Positions 1-10,908 of a stretch of 64,000 bases of DNA are shown here, in pieces. Each line of letters starts with the position of its first letter. Position 1 is the stretch's first letter. This stretch comes from Hydrogenophaga sp. PAMC20947 (GTDB lineage: Bacteria > Pseudomonadota > Gammaproteobacteria > Burkholderiales > Burkholderiaceae_C): positions 2,294,001 to 2,358,000 of the forward strand of contig NZ_CP039252.1 in NCBI RefSeq assembly GCF_004795855.1, written 5' to 3'. The notes beneath the pieces are model-generated. The model did no database searches. It was not told the DNA's origin and was given only the letters and a program-made list of their open reading frames with translations. Both the position numbers and the translations under genes were made by a program.

Positions 1-939
1 CACCAGCATCACCAGAGTCAAGGTGAACAGGGACAAACCGGTCGACAACACCATGCTGGCCGTGGTGAGATCCTGGCCCACCTCGTAGCGCTGGGCAAAC
101 ATGAACACGTTGGCGCCCATGGGCATGGCGGCTGCCACCACCATCACCGTCAACGGCAACCCGGTGATACCAAACACCCAGGCACTGATGCCCACCATCA
201 GGGGCAGCAGCAGGTTTTTGGACGCGGTGATCCACAGCGCTGGGCGAATATGCCCGCCCAGCGGCGTGCTGGCCATGGTCACACCCACCAGCACGAGTGC
301 GATCGGACCAAAAGCGCTGCCCAGCAACATCAACGGCTTGTCTACCACCACAGGCAAGGTCCAGCCGGTTTGCGCAAACAGCAAACCCGTGATGATCGGC
401 AGAGGAATCGGGTGAATCAACGCGTTCTTGAAGGCTGACCAGGTGGTTGCCAGCAGGTGCGGCGCTTCCATGCCCTGCGCGCGGTTTTCGCCGGCGACAG
501 CCAGTTCCAGCGTGATGGTGGTCACGGTCAGCAAAATGATGGCGTGCAAGGACACCACTGTGAGCAAGGTGACCAATCCCTCTTTGCCGTAAGCCAGCTG
601 CACCACGGTGATGCCGATCATGACGAGGTTTGAGAACACCCCTCCGAGCGCCATGACCACACTTTTCCGGTTGAAGCCGCGCCAGAAGACGGAGCCGCCC
701 AGCAGCAGCAACGCGGCCAGGAAATAGGCGACCAAGGGTCGAAGGTCCAGCGTTTCGACATGCACGGCGCTCATCGTGCGAAACAACAGCGCCGGGATCA
801 GCAGCAAAAACACCAGGTTGGACAAATCCTTGATCGCGGCGGCGCGGATCCACTGCAATCGCCCGGCCAGGTAGCCGCATGCAATCAAAATAAAGACAGG
901 CGTCAGCGACGCGACAACGGGGTGGTCAGTGATATTCAC
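1..939 (-). CDS. AEC-family (auxin efflux carrier-like) transporter, C-terminus cut by window edge
   Basis: An open frame of 313 codons runs from a GTG at 939 to the window edge with no stop, so the C-terminus is missing. The protein is a chain of hydrophobic segments with the AEC-family layout (about ten helices expected), starting VNITDHPVVASLTPVFIL. Family members include malonate and other organic-acid permeases of the inner membrane; the substrate cannot be read from sequence. No ATG fits the N-terminus, so GTG is inferred. The gene lies 68 bases downstream of the zinc-linked DUF3299 gene on the same strand and could be read through from that operon, but nothing else ties it to zinc. Confidence 0.85.
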   Translation of the reverse strand, partial: MNITDHPVVASLTPVFILIACGYLAGRLQWIRAAAIKDLSNLVFLLLIPALLFRTMSAVHVETLDLRPLVAYFLAALLLLGGSVFWRGFNRKSVVMALGGVFSNLVMIGITVVQLAYGKEGLVTLLTVVSLHAIILLTVTTITLELAVAGENRAQGMEAPHLLATTWSAFKNALIHPIPLPIITGLLFAQTGWTLPVVVDKPLMLLGSAFGPIALVLVGVTMASTPLGGHIRPALWITASKNLLLPLMVGISAWVFGITGLPLTVMVVAAAMPMGANVFMFAQRYEVGQDLTTASMVLSTGLSLFTLTLVMLV

Positions 940-1007: not shown

Positions 1008-1544
1008 TTATTTCACCTGTCGTGCGCCAGTCATGCGGTAGTACAAGCCCTGCGGGTCGTCTTTCAACACCTGAAACCGGCCCTCGATCACCAGCACATT
1101 CTGGGAGTACTTCAAGGGTTTCGTCGTGCGCACCTCCACCATGCTTTCGGCCCCACCGGGCACGCAGAACGGGCAGGTCGGTGGCACCGACAACAAGAGA
1201 AAATGCCGGTGCGAAGTGCCAGCCTCGAGTGGGGCCATATAGCCCTGCATCTTGACGGTGGTGCCGTTGAGCTGGCGCACCTTGTCCGTGAACGTGGTGG
1301 TGATGCGCGGTTTCTGGAACACCACGGACACATCGGTCAACACCGACCACGGCACCACATCGGCCCGCTCCACCAAGGGCGGAAAGGCGCTGCCGGCACC
1401 GTGTATGCCAGGTCCTTGCCCGGCGGCAACAGGGGCATCAGGCGCGGAGCCCATAGGCGAACTCAACACTTGCGCCCCCACCACAGCACAGCCGCTGAGC
1501 ATGCCCAGACCCAGCAGGCAAACCGCCCAATCTTTCCGTTTCAT
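1008..1544 (-). CDS. DUF3299-type lipoprotein, last gene of the Zur-headed operon
   Basis: The 178-residue product has a lipoprotein signal with lipobox LSGC (Cys19), so it should be acylated and face the periplasm. After a Pro/Ala/Gly linker, the region from about residue 68 resembles DUF3299 proteins, with SHRHF (His112, His114) and a TCPFC pair (Cys124, Cys127) that could bind metal or form a disulfide. DUF3299 proteins are known beside zinc-regulated ABC genes (the ZrgE-type member of the Vibrio Zrg system). It sits 19 bases after the small Cys/His protein gene and is the promoter-distal member of the operon led by the Zur-like gene. The family call is from memory of the pattern; the function is not established here. 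Confidence 0.75.
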   Translation of the reverse strand: MKRKDWAVCLLGLGMLSGCAVVGAQVLSSPMGSAPDAPVAAGQGPGIHGAGSAFPPLVERADVVPWSVLTDVSVVFQKPRITTTFTDKVRQLNGTTVKMQGYMAPLEAGTSHRHFLLLSVPPTCPFCVPGGAESMVEVRTTKPLKYSQNVLVIEGRFQVLKDDPQGLYYRMTGARQVK

Positions 1545-1563
1545 GCTTGCTCCTGGACCAGGC

Positions 1564-1815
1564 TCAGTGCGCGTGCTTCATGCCACAGTATTTTCCAATG
1601 GCCAGACCCTTGCAGGCCTTCTGCAGTTCGGCCAGGCAGGCTTTCTCGCCCTTGCCGGCTTCCATGCATTGGGCAGCGGCCTCGTGGGCGGCGGCCATTG
1701 CGCGGTGCCGCGCAATGTCTTCTTTGGCCTCTTCGACAGAGTGCTGGGCCAGAGCCGATGTGCACACCAGCGCGGAGGAAAAAAGCACCCCAATCGATTT
1801 CTTCATCAGTTCCAT
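1564..1815 (-). CDS. Small exported Cys/His-rich protein in the Zur operon
   Basis: This 83-residue protein begins with MELMKKSIGV and a typical signal peptide ending ALA|Q at residue 23. The mature part of about 60 residues has four cysteines (50, 60, 68, 77) and five histidines (25, 37, 44, 81, 83), ending KHAH, which is unusually rich in soft-metal ligands for such a small protein. The start at 1815 has AAGG about seven bases upstream. The preceding permease gene stops one base before it, so translation is probably coupled. I do not recognise a named family. A periplasmic metal-binding or disulfide-containing accessory to the ABC transporter is an inference from composition and position. 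Confidence 0.8.
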   Translation of the reverse strand: MELMKKSIGVLFSSALVCTSALAQHSVEEAKEDIARHRAMAAAHEAAAQCMEAGKGEKACLAELQKACKGLAIGKYCGMKHAH

Positions 1816-1816
1816 T

Positions 1817-3031
1817 TCAAGACCTTGCGTTCAACAAATGGGTCACGTCGACCCGATAAGCGCTGATCGACGGCACCAGCGCCGCGATCACCGCCACCCC
1901 AAAGGCCATCAGCGGTATCCCTGCTTCATAGGGAACCCACCGCCAGCCTTCAATCGAAAGCGATTGCTCGGACATGGCCATCGCACCCACCATGGCCATC
2001 GAACCGTGTGCCGCCAGCAAGCCCAAAACGCAGGCCAGCGCCGCCAGCCACAACGATTCACACAGCAGCAGCGCACCGACCTTGCGCGGGGAAGCCCCCA
2101 GCATGCGCAGCATCGCCAAATCCGCCCGGCGCTCGCGCACCGCATTCCACAAGGCGATGAACACCGACAAGCCCGCCACGCCAAGCAACACCGCGCCCAG
2201 ACCCTGAAGCACCTGAGCCCCCACACTGAAAAGGTTCATCAAACGCGCCACTTCCAGCGCGGGCGACGCCGCCTGCATGGCGGTGGTGCCGTTGATGAAG
2301 CGCGGAAAACTCAGGGTCGCCAACGGACTCTTGTAGCGAATCAAGGCCACGGTCACTTCGCGGTCGGCGGCAATGGCTGCGAGGTCTTCGTCGTCCATGT
2401 CGTCCGTGGCATGCATGTCGTCGTGCACTTGCCAGGCGGACTCGGTTGCGGTCAGCACCAAACGGTCGAGCACACAGCCACAGGGCGCGAGCACACCCGT
2501 GGTCATGTAGCGGGAATCGCCGTGGACCGCCCCGCCGTTGCCCAGTCCGTGCGCGCCAACAAAGCCCTGGCCTGTCGTCAGCCCCAGGGTTCTCGCCGCA
2601 TGTGCACCCATGACCGCCTCCATGGGCTGGGTCCACCAATGGCCTTGAGCCAAGGTGGCGCCGTAGTGCGCCGGGTAATCGGGGGTGGTGCCGATGATGC
2701 GAAAACCCTGCAGGTTGTCACCCATGCTGAGAGGAATCGCCTGGGCCACCTGGGGGTTGGCCTGCAGCGATTGGAGATCGTCGAGCGAGATATTGCCCGT
2801 GGGTGCATCGATGTGAAACACGCCGGACAGAATCAATTGCAAAGGACTCCCTTTGGCCCCCACAACCGCATCGATGCCGCGCAGATCGCGCTCGAATGCT
2901 CGGTCGAGCTGGTCTTGCGCGATCAAAACCACCGCCATGGCCGCGAGACCCAGCGTGAGCAGGAGGAGATTGAGCGAGGTGGTCAGCGGGCGGGCCCAAA
3001 GGTACTGCCATGAAAGCTTCAACGTGTTCAC
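1817..3031 (-). CDS. FtsX/LolC-type ABC transporter permease in the Zur operon
   Basis: The 404-residue protein has the FtsX/MacB/LolC layout: one N-terminal helix (about 20-38), a large periplasmic domain (about 40-255), then three C-terminal helices from about 258. The frame stays open upstream, but the GTG at 3031 (VNTLKLSWQYLW) overlaps the ATPase stop as GTGA and begins where family members begin. The periplasmic domain carries a CGC motif (184-186) and an acidic/His stretch at 203-216 with two His and eight Asp/Glu, which is unusual and suggests metal contact. Such permeases usually drive extraction or mechanotransmission in the periplasm rather than solute import. The gene pairs with the ATPase at 3028-3684 and resembles the Zrg-type zinc-regulated ABC pair. 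Confidence 0.85.
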   Translation of the reverse strand: MNTLKLSWQYLWARPLTTSLNLLLLTLGLAAMAVVLIAQDQLDRAFERDLRGIDAVVGAKGSPLQLILSGVFHIDAPTGNISLDDLQSLQANPQVAQAIPLSMGDNLQGFRIIGTTPDYPAHYGATLAQGHWWTQPMEAVMGAHAARTLGLTTGQGFVGAHGLGNGGAVHGDSRYMTTGVLAPCGCVLDRLVLTATESAWQVHDDMHATDDMDDEDLAAIAADREVTVALIRYKSPLATLSFPRFINGTTAMQAASPALEVARLMNLFSVGAQVLQGLGAVLLGVAGLSVFIALWNAVRERRADLAMLRMLGASPRKVGALLLCESLWLAALACVLGLLAAHGSMAMVGAMAMSEQSLSIEGWRWVPYEAGIPLMAFGVAVIAALVPSISAYRVDVTHLLNARS

Positions 3032-3684
3032 CGGGCTGCATCCCGCACCGCACCCAACAGCAACGTCTGGGCCTGCGGTAAAGCGCGCTCGACCCGCGCA
3101 TCGTGCGTGGCAATCACCAAGGTCGCCTGCGCCTGTTCCGCGCTGTCGCGCAACAAGGCCAGCGCCCGGCCACAAGCCGCGTCGTCCAGGCTCGCAGTGG
3201 GCTCGTCCACCAGCAAGACCTGCGGACGCAACAGCATGGCCCTGCCCAATGCCACACGCTGGGCCTGCCCACCTGACAACTGGGCGGGTTTTCGGCGGGC
3301 CAGCGCCGTGATGTCCAGCGCGGCGAGCACATCGGCGATGGCCGCGCGATCCACCGGTTGACCGCTTGCAAAGTAGACCAGCCCCAGGTTGTCGGTCACG
3401 GTCAGCGCCTCGCTCAACCACAGTTTTTGTGGCAAGAACCCGATGCACCGAGCACGCCAGCGGTCGCGCTCGCCACCCCGCAGCGCTGCAACCGACTGGC
3501 CGGCAACAAGTATTGAACCTTCACCAGCTGTGAGCAGCCCTGCCGCCAAGGCCAGCCAGGTGGATTTGCCGCTGCCCGATGGACCGCGCAACAAAAGCGC
3601 GCCGCCCTGAGGCACCTGCACATCGGCAAAACCGATGGCGGCGCCACCCGCGTAGACATGGCGCAACGCCCGGGTCTCGATCAC
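3028..3684 (-). CDS. LolD-like ABC transporter ATP-binding protein in the Zur operon
   Basis: The 218-residue product is a single nucleotide-binding domain of the size usual for LolD/MacB ATPases. It has Walker A GPSGSGKST (34-42), the ABC signature LSGGQAQR, Walker B VLLVDEPTASLD and the switch histidine in ATHD. The GTG at 3684 overlaps the upstream Zur-like stop as GTGA, and the gene's own TGA overlaps the GTG of the permease in the same way. The three genes are therefore likely to be translated in a coupled, stoichiometric manner. It should energise the FtsX-type permease that follows. The substrate is unknown, and a zinc link is inferred from operon context only. Confidence 0.88.
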   Translation of the reverse strand: MIETRALRHVYAGGAAIGFADVQVPQGGALLLRGPSGSGKSTWLALAAGLLTAGEGSILVAGQSVAALRGGERDRWRARCIGFLPQKLWLSEALTVTDNLGLVYFASGQPVDRAAIADVLAALDITALARRKPAQLSGGQAQRVALGRAMLLRPQVLLVDEPTASLDDAACGRALALLRDSAEQAQATLVIATHDARVERALPQAQTLLLGAVRDAAR

Positions 3685-4199
3685 CGGCGAGCCTCTTCGA
3701 GCTGCGCTGGTGTGCAACCGGCGCAGGTGCCGTGGATCGCCACATCCATGCGCACGCCATGGTGACCCAGCTCGGCCAAGACTTGGTAGAAGCGAGCGGC
3801 GGCGGCCTGAGTGGACGCCTCTGCGTTGGGCAAGCGGAACTGCTGGTGGCAGGCATCGCATTCAAAGCTCGGCGCACCGCCGCCCACCTCGGCTTCATGG
3901 AGATCGGCCAGGCGAAAGCGCCAGGTGCGCGCGGTGTCATCGGAGAAACGGGCAAGCACCCCACAGGCCGCCAGCCGCTCCAGCAGGCGGTACAGCGTCA
4001 CGCGGTTGATGTCGAGCCCCCGGGCCGTCAACAGCGAGAGGGCCTGCGCATGGTTCAGGCTGCGTTGGGGGCTCGCCACAAACAGCCCCACCACCGCCCG
4101 GGTGGCCAGGGTGCGGCGCAGGCCTCCTGCCTCCAGCCGTGTCTGGATGGCCTGCGGCACAGGCACGGATTCTTTGGGTTTGCGGGTCACCATGGGCAT
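3681..4199 (-). CDS. zur: Fur-family regulator, probably the zinc sensor Zur
   Basis: The 172-residue protein has a winged-helix N-terminal half (NRVTLYRLLERL, about 65-76, as recognition helix) and the two structural zinc CxxC pairs of Fur proteins, CDAC (114-117) and CAGC (159-162). It lies divergently from znuCBA across a region with two inverted repeats, which argues for Zur rather than Fur. The ATG at 4199 (or 4193) is chosen; a longer frame continues upstream into the operator region and is unlikely to be used. It heads the operon continuing into the LolD/FtsX-type ABC genes by a GTGA overlap. It is expected to repress both divergent operons when zinc is replete and probably autoregulates. 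Confidence 0.87.
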   Translation of the reverse strand: MPMVTRKPKESVPVPQAIQTRLEAGGLRRTLATRAVVGLFVASPQRSLNHAQALSLLTARGLDINRVTLYRLLERLAACGVLARFSDDTARTWRFRLADLHEAEVGGGAPSFECDACHQQFRLPNAEASTQAAAARFYQVLAELGHHGVRMDVAIHGTCAGCTPAQLEEARR

Positions 4200-4211
4200 G
4201 CTTTCATTATC

Positions 4212-4255
4212 GCAACAAAGTTGCATTAAGATCAACACTATCGCAATTGAGTTGC
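4212..4255. promoter_or_regulatory. Two inverted repeats between zur and znuC, candidate paired Zur operators
   Basis: The first repeat is GCAAC-AAA-GTTGC at 4212-4224 and the second is GCAAT-TGA-GTTGC at 4243-4255 (one mismatch). Both share the frame ATCGCAA...GTTGC. Their centres are 31 bases apart, close to three helical turns, so two dimers could bind the same DNA face. They occupy the short space between divergent starts at 4199 and 4260, where both promoters must lie. Zinc-dependent repression of both operons is the expected role; this is inferred from position and symmetry. Confidence 0.72.
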
Positions 4256-4259
4256 AACA

Positions 4260-5108
4260 GTGTACTGCCGACCCGTGCCCCACCCTTCCCCCGCCGCCCG
4301 CTTCAACGCACCCACCGTCGTCTTGCAGGACCTCACCTTGGGCTACGAGCGCCACCCTGCCGTGCACCACCTGAGTGTGCGCATCGAGCCGGGCTCGCTG
4401 CTGGCCGTTGTGGGTCCCAACGGTGCGGGCAAAAGCACCTTGATCAAGGCGCTCGCAGGCACCATGCGGCCGCTCAGCGGCACGATCGAAGGCTTGGCGC
4501 CACCGCAGCGCGTGGCGTGGTTGCCACAGCACAGCGAGCTCGACAGCAGCTTTCCGATTGATGTGCGAGGCATGGTGGCCATGGGGTTGTGGCACCGCAT
4601 GGGCGCACTGGGGCGCTTCACCGCCGAGCTAACGCAGCGCTGTGATCAGGCCCTGGCCGCCGTGGGCCTGGCCGGGTTTGAGCGGCGCGGGCTCGACACC
4701 TTGTCCGGCGGCCAACTGCAGCGCGCCCGGTTCGCGCGGCTGATCCTGCAAGACGCGCCGGTGGTGTTGCTCGACGAACCCTTTTCCGCCGTCGACCAGC
4801 GCACCACCGCCGACCTGCTTGGGTTGCTGCACCAGTGGCATGAGGCCGGCAAGACGGTGGTGGCGGTGTCGCACGATCTGGCCCAGGTACGCGCGCATTT
4901 CCCCCTGACGCTGTTGCTGGCGCGGGAGCCGGTCGCGTACGGCCCCACCGAACAGGTGCTGACCGAGGCGAACTGGGCAAACGCGACCGCCATGCGCGAA
5001 CCGCTCGACGACGGGGCACCCGAGTGCGCGCCCGAAGGCACCCACCACCACGATCACACCGACGAATCGGTGCAGCACAACGCGGCGTTTGCCAAGGCCA
5101 CGCCATGA
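4260..5108 (+). CDS. znuC: Zinc ABC transporter ATP-binding protein ZnuC
   Basis: The 282-residue product is the ATPase of a metal-import ABC system, with Walker A GPNGAGKST (52-60), the signature LSGGQLQR, Walker B VVLLDEPFSAVD and a switch histidine in VSHD. The C-terminal tail has a HHHDH cluster that could bind zinc. The frame begins at GTG 4260, only five bases after the second operator repeat; GTG 4275 is an alternative start and neither has a strong Shine-Dalgarno site. Its TGA overlaps the znuB ATG by four bases. Together with znuB and znuA it forms the high-affinity zinc importer of the inner membrane, presumably repressed by the adjacent Zur. Confidence 0.93.
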   Translation: MYCRPVPHPSPAARFNAPTVVLQDLTLGYERHPAVHHLSVRIEPGSLLAVVGPNGAGKSTLIKALAGTMRPLSGTIEGLAPPQRVAWLPQHSELDSSFPIDVRGMVAMGLWHRMGALGRFTAELTQRCDQALAAVGLAGFERRGLDTLSGGQLQRARFARLILQDAPVVLLDEPFSAVDQRTTADLLGLLHQWHEAGKTVVAVSHDLAQVRAHFPLTLLLAREPVAYGPTEQVLTEANWANATAMREPLDDGAPECAPEGTHHHDHTDESVQHNAAFAKATP

Positions 5109-5977
5109 ACGACAACACCCTGCTCATCGGCCCCTTCATCGAATTCGCCTTCATGCGCCAGGCACTGCTGGGCTGCCTGGCGCTCTCGCTCAGCGCCGCG
5201 CCAGTGGGCGTATTCCTGATGTTGCGGCGCATGAGCCTGACCGGCGATGCCATGGCCCACGCCATCCTGCCCGGCGCGGCGATCGGGTACCTGATGTTTG
5301 GCCTCTCGCTCATGGCCATGACGGTGGGCGGCATCATCGCCGGCCTGACCGTGGCGGTGGGCTCTGGCCTGGTGGCGCGCAACACCCTCATCCGGGAAGA
5401 CACCTCGCTCGCCGCTTTCTACCTGCTCTCGCTGGCGCTGGGCGTACTCATCGTGTCGGTGCGTGGCAACAACGTGGATCTGCTGCATGTGCTGTTTGGC
5501 ACCGTGCTGGCACTGGACGGACCGGCGCTCACACTGCTGTGGAGCATCACCGCGGTGACGCTGCTGACCCTGTTCATCATCCGCCGCCCGTTGATGCTGG
5601 AATGCCTGGACCCTGGATTTCTGCGCCAGGTCAGCCGCTGGAGCCCGGTGGCGCACTACGGGTTTCTGGGCCTGCTGGTCATCAACCTGGTGGCTGGTTT
5701 TCATGCGCTGGGCACTTTGATGGCCGTGGGCATCATGGTCTTGCCCGCCGCGAGCGCGCGGTTCTGGGTGCGCCGCATCGGTCCCATGTTGCTCATCGCC
5801 ACCGGCCTTGCCCTGCTGGCCAGCGCCGGCGGCCTGTTGATTTCGTACCACGCCGACTGGCCCACCAGCCCCGTGATTGTGTTGAGCCTGGGCCTGGTTT
5901 ACCTGCTCTCCCTGTTCTTGGCCCCCAACGGCTTACTGCGCCAGCAACGCGCCGCGCAGACACACCTGAAAGCCTGA
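5105..5977 (+). CDS. znuB: Zinc ABC transporter permease ZnuB
   Basis: The 290-residue integral membrane protein has eight or nine hydrophobic segments and the ABC-3 family permease pattern (LSLSAAPVGVFLMLRRMSL near the N-terminus, then MAHAILPGAAIGY). The length is usual for ZnuB. The start is the ATG at 5105, which overlaps the znuC stop as ATGA; a longer frame upstream lies inside znuC and is not the gene. It forms the membrane channel that passes zinc delivered by ZnuA, powered by ZnuC. Confidence 0.93.
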   Translation: MNDNTLLIGPFIEFAFMRQALLGCLALSLSAAPVGVFLMLRRMSLTGDAMAHAILPGAAIGYLMFGLSLMAMTVGGIIAGLTVAVGSGLVARNTLIREDTSLAAFYLLSLALGVLIVSVRGNNVDLLHVLFGTVLALDGPALTLLWSITAVTLLTLFIIRRPLMLECLDPGFLRQVSRWSPVAHYGFLGLLVINLVAGFHALGTLMAVGIMVLPAASARFWVRRIGPMLLIATGLALLASAGGLLISYHADWPTSPVIVLSLGLVYLLSLFLAPNGLLRQQRAAQTHLKA

Positions 5978-6982
<1,005 letters not shown>

Positions 6983-7052: not shown

Positions 7053-7946
7053 TTGCCCTTCAACCACCTGCTCCTCGCCCTCGCTGTCGTGTTTGTCTGG
7101 GGCACCAATTTTGTGGTCATCCGCTGGGGGCTGGACGGTTTGCCGCCTTTCCTGTTTGCCACGCTGCGCTTCACCTTTTCAGCCCTGCCCTGGCTGCTCT
7201 TCATTCCGAGGCCCAAGGCCCCCTGGCACAAGATGGCGGCCTTCGGCATGTTGTTGGGCGTGGGCCAATTCGGCTTGCTCTTTCTGGCCATTCGCAGCGA
7301 CATTTCACCCGGCCTGGCGTCGCTGGTGGTGCAGTTGCAGGTGTTTTTCACCATCGGCTTGTCGCTGTATTTCATGGGCGAGAAAGTGCGCGGTTACCAG
7401 ATCACCGGCTTGCTGTTGGCCGTGGCTGGCCTGGGCGTGATCGGCGCGCACCTGAACGCCACCGTCACCCTGCTGGGCGTCGCCCTGGTGCTGATGGCCG
7501 GCTTTTTCTGGGCCTGCGCCAACCTGGTGGTGAAGTCCATCGGGCGCGTGAATATGCTGCATTTCGTGGTCTGGAGCAGCATCTTTGCTGTGCCACCGCT
7601 GTTTGCGCTGTCGTGGCTCTTTGAAGGTCCCCCAGCAAGCATGTGGCACCTGTTGCAGCAAGCCAGCGCCCTCACCTGGGCCAGCGTCGCCTGGCAGGCC
7701 GTGGGCAATTCGCTGTTTGGTTTCGGCGTCTGGAACTGGCTGCTCTCGCGCCACCCTGCCGCCGTCGTCACCCCCATGGCCCTGCTCGTGCCCGTGTTTG
7801 GCATGAGCGCTTCGGCTCTGGCTTTGGGCGAACCGATGCAACCATGGAAGCTGGGGGCGGGCGCTTTGGTCTTGGCCGGTCTGGCGGTGATTGTGTTGTG
7901 GCCAAGGCTCACCCGACCCCGTCGAGCCATCGTCGACGCACGCTAG
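7053..7946 (+). CDS. EamA-family (DMT) exporter, cysteine/O-acetylserine exporter-like
   Basis: The 297-residue protein has about ten transmembrane helices in two EamA repeats. Its N-terminus (VVFVWGTNFVVIRWGLDGLP) and the segment with GLASLVVQLQVFFTIGL match the pattern of E. coli EamA (YdeD), an exporter of cysteine-pathway metabolites. The start is a TTG at 7053 with GGAG at 7043-7046, six bases upstream. It follows znuA by 70 bases beyond a hairpin, so it may or may not share the znu transcript. The substrate assignment is by resemblance only. Confidence 0.82.
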   Translation: MPFNHLLLALAVVFVWGTNFVVIRWGLDGLPPFLFATLRFTFSALPWLLFIPRPKAPWHKMAAFGMLLGVGQFGLLFLAIRSDISPGLASLVVQLQVFFTIGLSLYFMGEKVRGYQITGLLLAVAGLGVIGAHLNATVTLLGVALVLMAGFFWACANLVVKSIGRVNMLHFVVWSSIFAVPPLFALSWLFEGPPASMWHLLQQASALTWASVAWQAVGNSLFGFGVWNWLLSRHPAAVVTPMALLVPVFGMSASALALGEPMQPWKLGAGALVLAGLAVIVLWPRLTRPRRAIVDAR

Positions 7947-9439: not shown

Positions 9440-9988
9440 TTACTTCGCCAACCGCGCAAACGTCTTGCGAAACTTCGCCACCTTGGGCGCGGCCACGGCC
9501 ATGCAATAACCCTGGTTCGGGTTGCGCTCAAAGAAGTCCTGGTGGTACTCCTCGGCCGGAAAATAGTGGGCCAGCGGCAGCAACTCGGTCACGATGGGAC
9601 TGCCAAAGGCGTCGTCTTTGGTGAGCTCGTCGATCAATGCCTGGGCGGTTTGCTGCTGCTCAGGGCTGGTGAAGTAGATGCCGCTGCGGTATTGCGTGCC
9701 GGTGTCGTTGCCCTGGCGGTTGAGCGTGGTGGCGTCGTGCACCACGAAGAAGATTTCCAGGATCTCGCGGGTGCTGATCTGGGCTGGGTCGTATTCGAGT
9801 TTCACCACCTCGTTGCAACCCGTGCGCCCGGTGCACACCATTTCGTAGCTGGGCGCGGTTTCCTGGCCGTTGCTGTAACCCGATTCGACATCGGTCACGC
9901 CTTTGACGTTTTTGTAAACGCTCTCGGTGCACCAGAAGCAGCCGCCGCCCAGAACGAGGGTTTGCGTGTTGTTGGTTGGATTGCTCAT
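9440..9988 (-). CDS. msrA: Peptide-methionine (S)-S-oxide reductase MsrA
   Basis: The 182-residue protein carries the MsrA active site GGCFWCTE with catalytic Cys17, and the family segments YSNGQETAPSYEMVCTGRTGCNEVV and HQDFFERNPNQGYC in pieces along the chain. It repairs methionine-S-sulfoxide in oxidised proteins and free methionine using thioredoxin. The ATG at 9988 overlaps the stop of the upstream LysR gene (ATGA), and a good GGAG site lies inside the end of that gene, so translation is coupled. A cytosolic location is likely because no signal peptide is present. Confidence 0.95.
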   Translation of the reverse strand: MSNPTNNTQTLVLGGGCFWCTESVYKNVKGVTDVESGYSNGQETAPSYEMVCTGRTGCNEVVKLEYDPAQISTREILEIFFVVHDATTLNRQGNDTGTQYRSGIYFTSPEQQQTAQALIDELTKDDAFGSPIVTELLPLAHYFPAEEYHQDFFERNPNQGYCMAVAAPKVAKFRKTFARLAK

Positions 9989-10908
9989 GGTTTTTCTCCT
10001 TTGGAAGTCAGGGCGCTATGGTGCACCGGTTTGGCCGCCCCTCGCACTGTGGCCAGAAATGCCCCCAGGGCAGACTGGTCGCGCTCGGTGCGCCACAGGC
10101 AATGCGTGTCGTAGGGCGAGAGCGGGCGCGCCAGGGGCACGAACGCCACGCCCGGCAAGCCCGCTTGCTGCAAAGCAGCCGGCACCAGGCCCACACCCAG
10201 CCCCTGCGCGATCACCGACACCACGCTGAGCCAATGGCGCAGCTCGTAACCCAGCACCGGCTCAAAACCCGCGTCGCCGCACGCCGAAAGAATGCGGTCG
10301 TGGTAATCGGGCGAAACAGCGCGCATCACGATGGCAAAGGGATCGCCGCGCAGACTCTCCAGCGTCAGAGACTTGCTTTTCGCCTGGGCATGGTTCACCG
10401 GCAAACAGGCCACAAACGGCTGGCTCGACACCAGAATCTGAGAAAAGCCAGCCGGTACCCGCGTGGTGTGCACAAAGCCCAGATCCAGCCGGTCGCGCAC
10501 CAGATCGGCAAGCTGTTCGGCTGAGCTGAGTTCGCGCAACATCAGCCGCAAGCGGGGGTGGCCGGCTGCAAAGTTCCTCAGCATCTGCGGCAAGCCGCGG
10601 TACAGTACCGTGCCCGCAAAGCCGATTTGCAGCTGCCCGGCCAGACCCTGGCCCACATCGCGGGCCTCGCGCGCTGCCTGAGCCGCCTGCTCCAGCAGCG
10701 CCACCGCCTTGGGCAAGAAAGCCTCTCCCGCGGCAGTGAGGCTCACGCCTCGGCTGTTGCGTTCAAACAGCCGCGCGCCCACGGAAGCCTCCAGCTGCTG
10801 GATGTTGAGCGAAAGCGGCGGCTGCGTCATGGACATGCGCTGGGCAGCGCGGCCGAAGTGCAGCTCTTCGGCCAAGACCGTAAAACAACGCAGATGTCGG
10901 AATTCCAT
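9985..10908 (-). CDS. LysR-type transcriptional regulator divergent from gcdH
   Basis: The 307-residue protein starts MEFRHLRCFTVLAEELHFGR, the standard LysR helix-turn-helix N-terminus, followed by an effector-binding domain from about residue 90. The ATG at 10908 is chosen because it starts exactly at the family N-terminus; the longer frame adds unrelated residues. It is divergent from glutaryl-CoA dehydrogenase with a perfect inverted repeat in the intergenic space. It is a good candidate for the activator of gcdH, as LysR regulators (GcdR) are known for this pathway in pseudomonads. It overlaps msrA downstream, an odd pairing. Confidence 0.9.
   Translation of the reverse strand: MEFRHLRCFTVLAEELHFGRAAQRMSMTQPPLSLNIQQLEASVGARLFERNSRGVSLTAAGEAFLPKAVALLEQAAQAAREARDVGQGLAGQLQIGFAGTVLYRGLPQMLRNFAAGHPRLRLMLRELSSAEQLADLVRDRLDLGFVHTTRVPAGFSQILVSSQPFVACLPVNHAQAKSKSLTLESLRGDPFAIVMRAVSPDYHDRILSACGDAGFEPVLGYELRHWLSVVSVIAQGLGVGLVPAALQQAGLPGVAFVPLARPLSPYDTHCLWRTERDQSALGAFLATVRGAAKPVHHSALTSKGEKP

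Follow-up and report, generated by a model that had tools for sequence, protein, structure and literature searches.

In Vibrio cholerae, ZrgA is reported to be essential to zinc uptake by zrgABCDE, for which it is the proposed binding protein (PMC9820375), while PA4063 of Pseudomonas aeruginosa is described as binding zinc in the micromolar range and carrying histidine-rich loops (PMC8561739). The adjoining pair PA4064-PA4065, which models as MacB, has been proposed as a MacB-type exporter tied to pyochelin, and a PA4065 znuA zrmB mutant is reported to over-accumulate cobalt in a pyochelin-dependent manner (PMC11481552). The direction of transport is contested in the literature on Zrg and PA4064-PA4065. 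The operon analyzed here lies at positions 1,008 to 4,199 of a 64,000-nucleotide stretch of Hydrogenophaga sp. PAMC20947 (contig NZ_CP039252.1, positions 2,294,001 to 2,358,000; hereafter the window), and comprises, in minus-strand order, zur, an ATP-binding cassette (ABC) ATPase, a MacB/FtsX-type permease, a small exported Cys/His protein (here termed SMALL) and a DUF3299 lipoprotein. As judged by comparison of its genes and models, it is a variant of the zrgABCDE/PA4063-PA4066 system. A preliminary description of the window had suspected such kinship, which is borne out by the MacB/LolE-like model of the permease and a DUF3299 profile matching PA4066; its suggestion of a different version agrees with the lack of ZrgA, the presence of SMALL instead and the position of zur as the first gene.

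Gene order and the shared control region

The five genes lie on the minus strand at the place that the preliminary description gave, and both junctions of the ABC genes (zur/ATPase and ATPase/permease) read as GTGA overlaps in the sequence. SMALL starts 1 bp past the permease and the DUF3299 gene 19 bp past SMALL, and the operon is judged to be conserved and real. Its features and those of the divergent neighbour are as follows:

3681..4199, minus strand: zur, Fur-family zinc repressor of 172 residues, first gene of the operon (CxxC pairs, Zur profile)
3028..3684, minus strand: ABC ATPase of the LolD/MacB class, with a GTG start overlapping the zur stop (ABC_tran, 97 bits)
1817..3031, minus strand: MacB/FtsX-type permease of 404 residues with a large periplasmic domain and a GTG start overlapping the ATPase stop
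2360..2425, minus strand: permease codons from H203 to residue 224, the invariant histidine and the loop (His-rich inserts in relatives without SMALL)
2549-2551 and 2522-2524, minus strand: codons of permease H161 and H170, the other conserved histidines
1564..1815, minus strand: SMALL, exported Cys/His protein of 83 residues, putative new family
1008..1544, minus strand: DUF3299 lipoprotein with CxxC, homologue of ZrgE/PA4066 (lipobox by eye)
4208..4228, no strand: Zur-box-like palindrome 1 (sequence comparison)
4239..4259, no strand: Zur-box-like palindrome 2 (sequence comparison)
4206..4235, minus strand: sigma-70-like promoter facing zur, which overlaps palindrome 1 (by consensus match only)
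4260..5108, plus strand: znuC/aztA-like ATPase, divergent, same control region (start codon unsure)
5105..5977, plus strand: znuB/aztB-like permease
6005..6982, plus strand: znuA/aztC-like zinc-binding protein

The zur product contains a winged-helix region and both structural CxxC pairs (C114/C117 and C159/C162), which had been noted earlier for this Fur-family gene and are invariant in 12 aligned Zurs; its Pfam FUR match reaches only 17 bits, below the cut-off of 23.1. Divergent from zur across 60 bp lies a three-gene zinc importer (4260-6982), which is nearest to AztABC in NCBIfam, with AztA at the cut-off (220.1 versus 220) and AztB and AztC below theirs. The preliminary description had placed this importer beside the operon but apart from it; the first part holds, but the second does not, as both palindromes lie in the 60-bp gap.

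The box pattern TGCAACNNNNTTGCRNTA was written from the two boxes of the window plus boxes of relatives, and was made without sight of the RegPrecise motif for Burkholderia, to which PMC10563805 refers. Only two perfect matches are found in the whole 4.85-Mb genome, both in the zur/znuC gap, and znuCBA and the zur operon are therefore predicted to share one control region; at up to two mismatches, TGCAACNNNNTTGCRNTA gives 100 genome matches versus 104 in the control, which is no excess. A similar box precedes most zur-led operons of relatives, and by this comparison the palindromes are interpreted as a putative Zur box. The operon is very probably Zur-controlled and its control by zinc is likely, so that the zinc-starvation control foreseen earlier finds support, at the level of sequence, in the two matches.

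The last gene of the operon matches DUF3299 in Pfam with 26 bits (cut-off 22), and a profile of 18 rows matches the structure 4hsp, named as that of PA4066 (PMC8561739), at E 2.8e-6, against only 0.027 for a single-sequence search. The CxxC motif (C124, C127) is found in 17 of the 18 rows. At one order-level locus (L041), the DUF3299 gene precedes the ATPase rather than following the permease.

SMALL and the histidines of the permease

As the preliminary description proposed, SMALL looks exported and Cys/His-rich, with a signal-peptide-like start (by eye) and a mature part with four cysteines and five histidines. It is not a chance open reading frame, as 3,273 of 3,274 candidates match it at E <= 0.001 in a single-sequence search and an alignment of 33 relatives has 11 invariant columns; these include H37, H44, C50, C60, C68, G74, C77, G78 and H83, and two methionines (M40 and M79) are conserved too. 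A profile search at the same threshold yields 6,549 relatives among 8,000 scored. No Pfam or NCBIfam family fits SMALL, the relatives among the matches listed are all named 'hypothetical' or 'uncharacterized', and by these searches it is a new, undescribed protein family, a compact zinc-binding candidate without a family name. The AlphaFold2 model (pLDDT 77.6, pTM 0.57) predicts two helices (27-52 and 57-68) that form a hairpin, plus a loose tail with Cys and His. Some relatives of 136-144 residues (P0016, P0026, P0079 and L035:1176-1607) consist of two tandem copies. In loci L036, L038, L039 and L040, a PepSY-like small protein sits between the permease and DUF3299 genes, in SMALL's place, and the one scanned (L036) is PepSY_2.

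The FtsX-type assignment made earlier for the permease is upheld by its matches to FtsX (51 bits) and MacB_PCD (35 bits) in Pfam and by a model (pLDDT 87.9, pTM 0.77) with the MacB/LolE fold; the features of the MacB superfamily (type VII ABC), namely a four-transmembrane FtsX-type permease, a large periplasmic domain and the common fold, are all recognized. No substitution is seen at D54, D105, H161, D189 or H203 across 138 close permeases and 18 distant ones, 10 of the latter having a ZrgA hit alongside (by eye), while H170 is kept in 137 of the 138 close and all 18 distant ones. By the secondary structure of the model, H161 and H170 are each at the end of a strand, the two strands being neighbours, and H203 is part of a helix, after which comes the loop. 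This strictly conserved periplasmic His/Asp set offers targets for mutation.

The loop after H203 carries inserts with up to 13 histidines in relatives. Among 76 permease-drawn loci (77 less L101; L035 is counted as with SMALL, its tandem copy lying 4.7 kb off), a loop with at least four histidines is found in 0 of 42 permeases with SMALL and 14 of 34 without; with SMALL-drawn loci added, which biases the sample to SMALL, the counts are 0/104 and 14/34. The pattern is not a general histidine enrichment, as the periplasmic histidines before the loop run the opposite way (6.1 with SMALL versus 4.7 without, p 2e-4). On the tree, 10 changes are needed for the loop and 11 for SMALL. We infer that SMALL, ZrgA and the His-rich loop may be alternative zinc-binding modules of one transporter.

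Distribution and the frame of the locus

In a sample of 200 genomes of the family, a close permease (E <= 1e-60) is found in 63, SMALL in 53 and both in 46, with 17 of the 63 having the permease without SMALL. The two genes lie within 400 bp of each other in 45 of the 46 genomes (by eye), and on different contigs in the other one. ZrgA (PF10986, above cut-off) is found in 34 of the 200 genomes and not in that of the window; it never occurs together with SMALL (0/200; Fisher 1e-5, kinship not corrected) and accompanies a close permease in only two, while 30 of the 34 ZrgA genomes carry a distant permease of about 30% identity. In a tree of 76 close permeases and 6 ZrgA-linked permeases of Burkholderiales, which did not include those of V. 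cholerae and P. aeruginosa, the two groups are split with 100/100 support. This distribution therefore points to two lineages of one system, the ZrgA-linked one and that of the window operon. The preliminary description had put forward a search for SMALL and its neighbourhood in other Burkholderiales as a check. At least 334 SMALL loci were confirmed; among the matches listed, 80 are named and come from Hydrogenophaga, Rhodoferax, Polaromonas, Limnohabitans, Tepidicella, Inhella and other Burkholderiales or beta-proteobacterial records, with one record titled just 'bacterium'. SMALL is present in two of 369 class genomes, both from the genus of the window. Seven family genomes possess SMALL without a close permease; leaving aside one fragment at a contig end, the six loci fetched from them all have msrA upstream of SMALL, and four have a TonB receptor downstream.

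Loci of 55 of the 63 family permeases were fetched, window included (the eight left out all have SMALL), and the nearest annotated same-strand gene upstream was taken as leader. The leader is zur in 17 loci, msrA in 30, a CobW-type gene in one and none of the searched genes in seven. A box lies in front of 16 of the 17 zur-led loci, and of none of the msrA-led (0/30), no-gene (0/7) and CobW-type (0/1) loci; SMALL is present in 17/17 zur-led and 18/30 msrA-led loci. In 26 of the 30 msrA-led loci, no more than about 165 bp separate the end of msrA from the estimated start of the ATPase gene; in L090, L101, L128 and L135 the distance is 339-1168 bp. A genome-wide check for Zur, the box and ZnuB covered 42 of these genomes (27 msrA-led and 15 zur-led, several of them drafts). 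Zur above 150 bits is found in 15/15 zur-led and 0/27 msrA-led genomes (best 77 bits), by a model to which six of the 15 zur-led genomes gave rows and nine did not, and which a Zur of another family would escape. The strict box occurs anywhere in the genome in 14/15 and 1/27, and ZnuB above 140 bits in 11/15 and 1/27, respectively. Genome G208 (msrA-led locus L136) encodes a Fur-family protein with 77 bits against the Zur profile, on which Zurs exceed 170 and others stay below 55.

Zur-led and msrA-led loci have a common frame, LysR - msrA - (EamA) - {znuABC} - {zur} - {ATPase-permease} - SMALL - {DUF3299} - {DUF2946-like, ZnuD-like} - AEC-type transporter, which recurs in many Burkholderiales loci and in which the braced parts are optional. 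The window holds LysR, msrA, EamA, znu, zur, ABC, SMALL, DUF3299 and AEC-type genes, those bordering the zinc genes (assigned by Pfam) being:

1-939, minus strand: AEC-type (Mem_trans) transporter, recurrent border of the locus
7053-7946, plus strand: EamA transporter, recurrent border of the locus
9440-9988, minus strand: msrA, upstream of the zinc genes
9985-10908, minus strand: LysR gene, upstream of the zinc genes

Locus L081, from the one genome drawn of the window's own genus, reads LysR-msrA-EamA-SMALL-AEC, with no zur, znu, ABC or DUF3299 gene at the site, and L181 and L199 have zur-SMALL without the ABC genes. The simplest reading of these arrangements is repeated loss, in which msrA would become the leader once zur and znu are lost. 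In many relatives, a ZnuD-like TonB receptor adjoins the module. The four receptors scanned (L032, L049, L082 and L106) are nearest to ZnuD in NCBIfam, none above the cut-off (L082 scores 650 bits versus 950), and the closest solved structure to that of L106 is ZnuD 4rdr. A small protein precedes the ZnuD-like receptor at L112:4555-4983 and L082:5568-5972; that of L112 resembles DUF2946 but scores 14 bits, under the Pfam threshold of 23.7. The genes that recur beside the module in relatives have to do with zinc (znuABC, CobW/COG0523 GTPases, ZIP and ZnuD-like receptors), and the zinc setting looks ancestral, as many loci outside the family also have the module beside zur, ZIP, CobW or znu genes.

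The preliminary description regarded conservation of the ABC genes without zur or SMALL as evidence against its proposal, and such genomes are indeed common (17 of 63 without SMALL; msrA as leader in 30 of 55 loci). They are read here as modular exchange within one system rather than as refutation, because the 27 msrA-led genomes checked have no Zur of this family and the His-rich loop occurs in 14 of 34 permeases without SMALL.

Proposed role and comparison with known systems

On balance, and with moderate confidence, the operon is probably a Zur-repressed zinc-starvation operon, the Burkholderiales variant of Zrg/PA4063-PA4066, in which SMALL would hand zinc to the MacB-type permease and periplasmic zinc would thereby be mobilised for uptake. 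Zur-Zn would occupy the two boxes between zur and znuC and silence both directions, and loss of zinc would free znuCBA and zur-ABC-SMALL-DUF3299 together. The ABC pair is predicted to be a MacB-fold machine of type VII working by mechanotransmission, while SMALL, with its predicted helical hairpin, four cysteines and flanking histidines, may bind periplasmic zinc and present it to the periplasmic domain of the permease, doing the job of ZrgA in the Zrg lineage and of the His-rich loop in some relatives without SMALL. In the least certain step, ATP-driven movement of the periplasmic domain would make the little zinc present in the periplasm available for uptake, the CxxC-bearing DUF3299 protein being a putative accessory.

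Several observations weigh against this proposal. The homologous P. aeruginosa pair has been proposed as an exporter (PMC11481552), one zur-led locus (L115) lacks a preceding box, and no overall association is found between the close permease and ZnuB in the 200 genomes (Fisher p 0.73). Of the 34 permeases without SMALL, 20 have no loop with at least four histidines, and when kinship is corrected for in eight independent pairs, about four go the expected way and none the opposite (median p 0.125). At cut-offs of at least three and at least two histidines, tried after that of four, p is 0.0625 and 0.031, with about 0.1 pair going the opposite way at the latter; the exchange of loop and SMALL is thus only suggestive after kinship correction.

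In a plain zinc importer, SMALL would be a solute-binding protein and the permease would carry zinc to the cytoplasm, the mechanism suggested for ZrgA-ZrgBC of V. cholerae, where ZrgA is the essential, proposed binding component (PMC9820375). Some zinc route is needed in the 26 of 27 msrA-led genomes without ZnuB, in which other zinc routes were not searched for. The predicted MacB/LolE fold counts against such import, as those members with solved structures work on cargo in the periplasm or the membrane and are not known to import ions, which leaves this an unlikely explanation. Export of a zinc-binding ligand or a metallophore, along the lines suggested for PA4064-PA4065 with pyochelin, would be consistent with the cobalt phenotype and MacB-like model mentioned above (PMC11481552) and with the ZnuD-like receptors beside the module in many relatives. 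However, no MacA partner or TolC-like gene was recognized by eye in the window operon (neither was searched for genome-wide), the window genome has no full-length relative of the query receptor (39 bits only), and the conserved periplasmic histidines and His-rich loops would be more in keeping with the handling of metal than of a particular organic ligand, so that export is considered improbable.

It is quite improbable that the module is not zinc-specific, serving copper or oxidative stress in msrA-led lineages with the zur-led copies recruited, as could be imagined from the 30 msrA-led loci without a Zur box and the conserved methionines of SMALL. As the frame is common to both locus types, msrA may simply be the next upstream gene after loss of zur and znu; moreover, the receptors of two msrA-led loci (L082 and L106) are nearest to ZnuD, and loci outside the family often have zinc genes beside them. 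The idea of the preliminary description that the ABC system acts on the zinc sites of envelope proteins, by loading or remodelling them, is very doubtful, as the chosen families searched for gave no conspicuous gene for an envelope client next to the module and the annotated recurrent neighbours are uptake or zinc genes, although the LolE/MacB fold, predicted for the permease, handles envelope cargo and SMALL and the CxxC DUF3299 protein look exported.

As a tentative extension of the favoured zinc-mobilising role, SMALL, ZrgA and the His-rich loop could possibly serve one MacB-type mechanotransmission machine as three zinc antennae that can replace one another; where Zur and ZnuABC are lost, this machine would act, often together with a ZnuD-like receptor and under the msrA promoter, as the principal high-affinity route for zinc. 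The lineage offers natural experiments, in that some permeases come with SMALL, others have the His-rich loop built in and others still lack both, and Zur and ZnuABC may be present or absent; it thus matters for the contested question of whether the MacB-like transporters of the Zrg/PA4064-65 kind bring zinc in or export something.

ZnuABC/AztABC is a cluster A-I importer of another fold class. It is a zinc-starvation importer and, as the divergent neighbour, shares the two boxes with the window operon, but it lies outside the operon. Compared with MacB, LolCDE and FtsEX (type VII ABC), the window permease differs by its His-bearing periplasmic domain and zinc neighbourhood. P. aeruginosa PA4063-PA4066 has the same order of ATPase, permease and DUF3299 and is zinc/Zur-regulated in that species; PA4063 (ZrgA) leads there, whereas in the window zur leads and SMALL follows the permease, and the CxxC of DUF3299 in the window lineage is matched in the aligned stretch of PA4066 by Cys then His. 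From zrgABCDE of V. cholerae, the window operon differs by SMALL in place of ZrgA (PF10986), by zur as the first gene and by having no ZrgD-like gene (by eye), and the ZrgA-linked permease lineage, homologous to the window permease, forms a separate clade (100/100); both systems share a two-protein MacB-like ABC pair, a periplasmic metal-binding partner (putative in the case of SMALL), a ZrgE-type DUF3299 protein and the zinc-starvation setting (PMC9820375).

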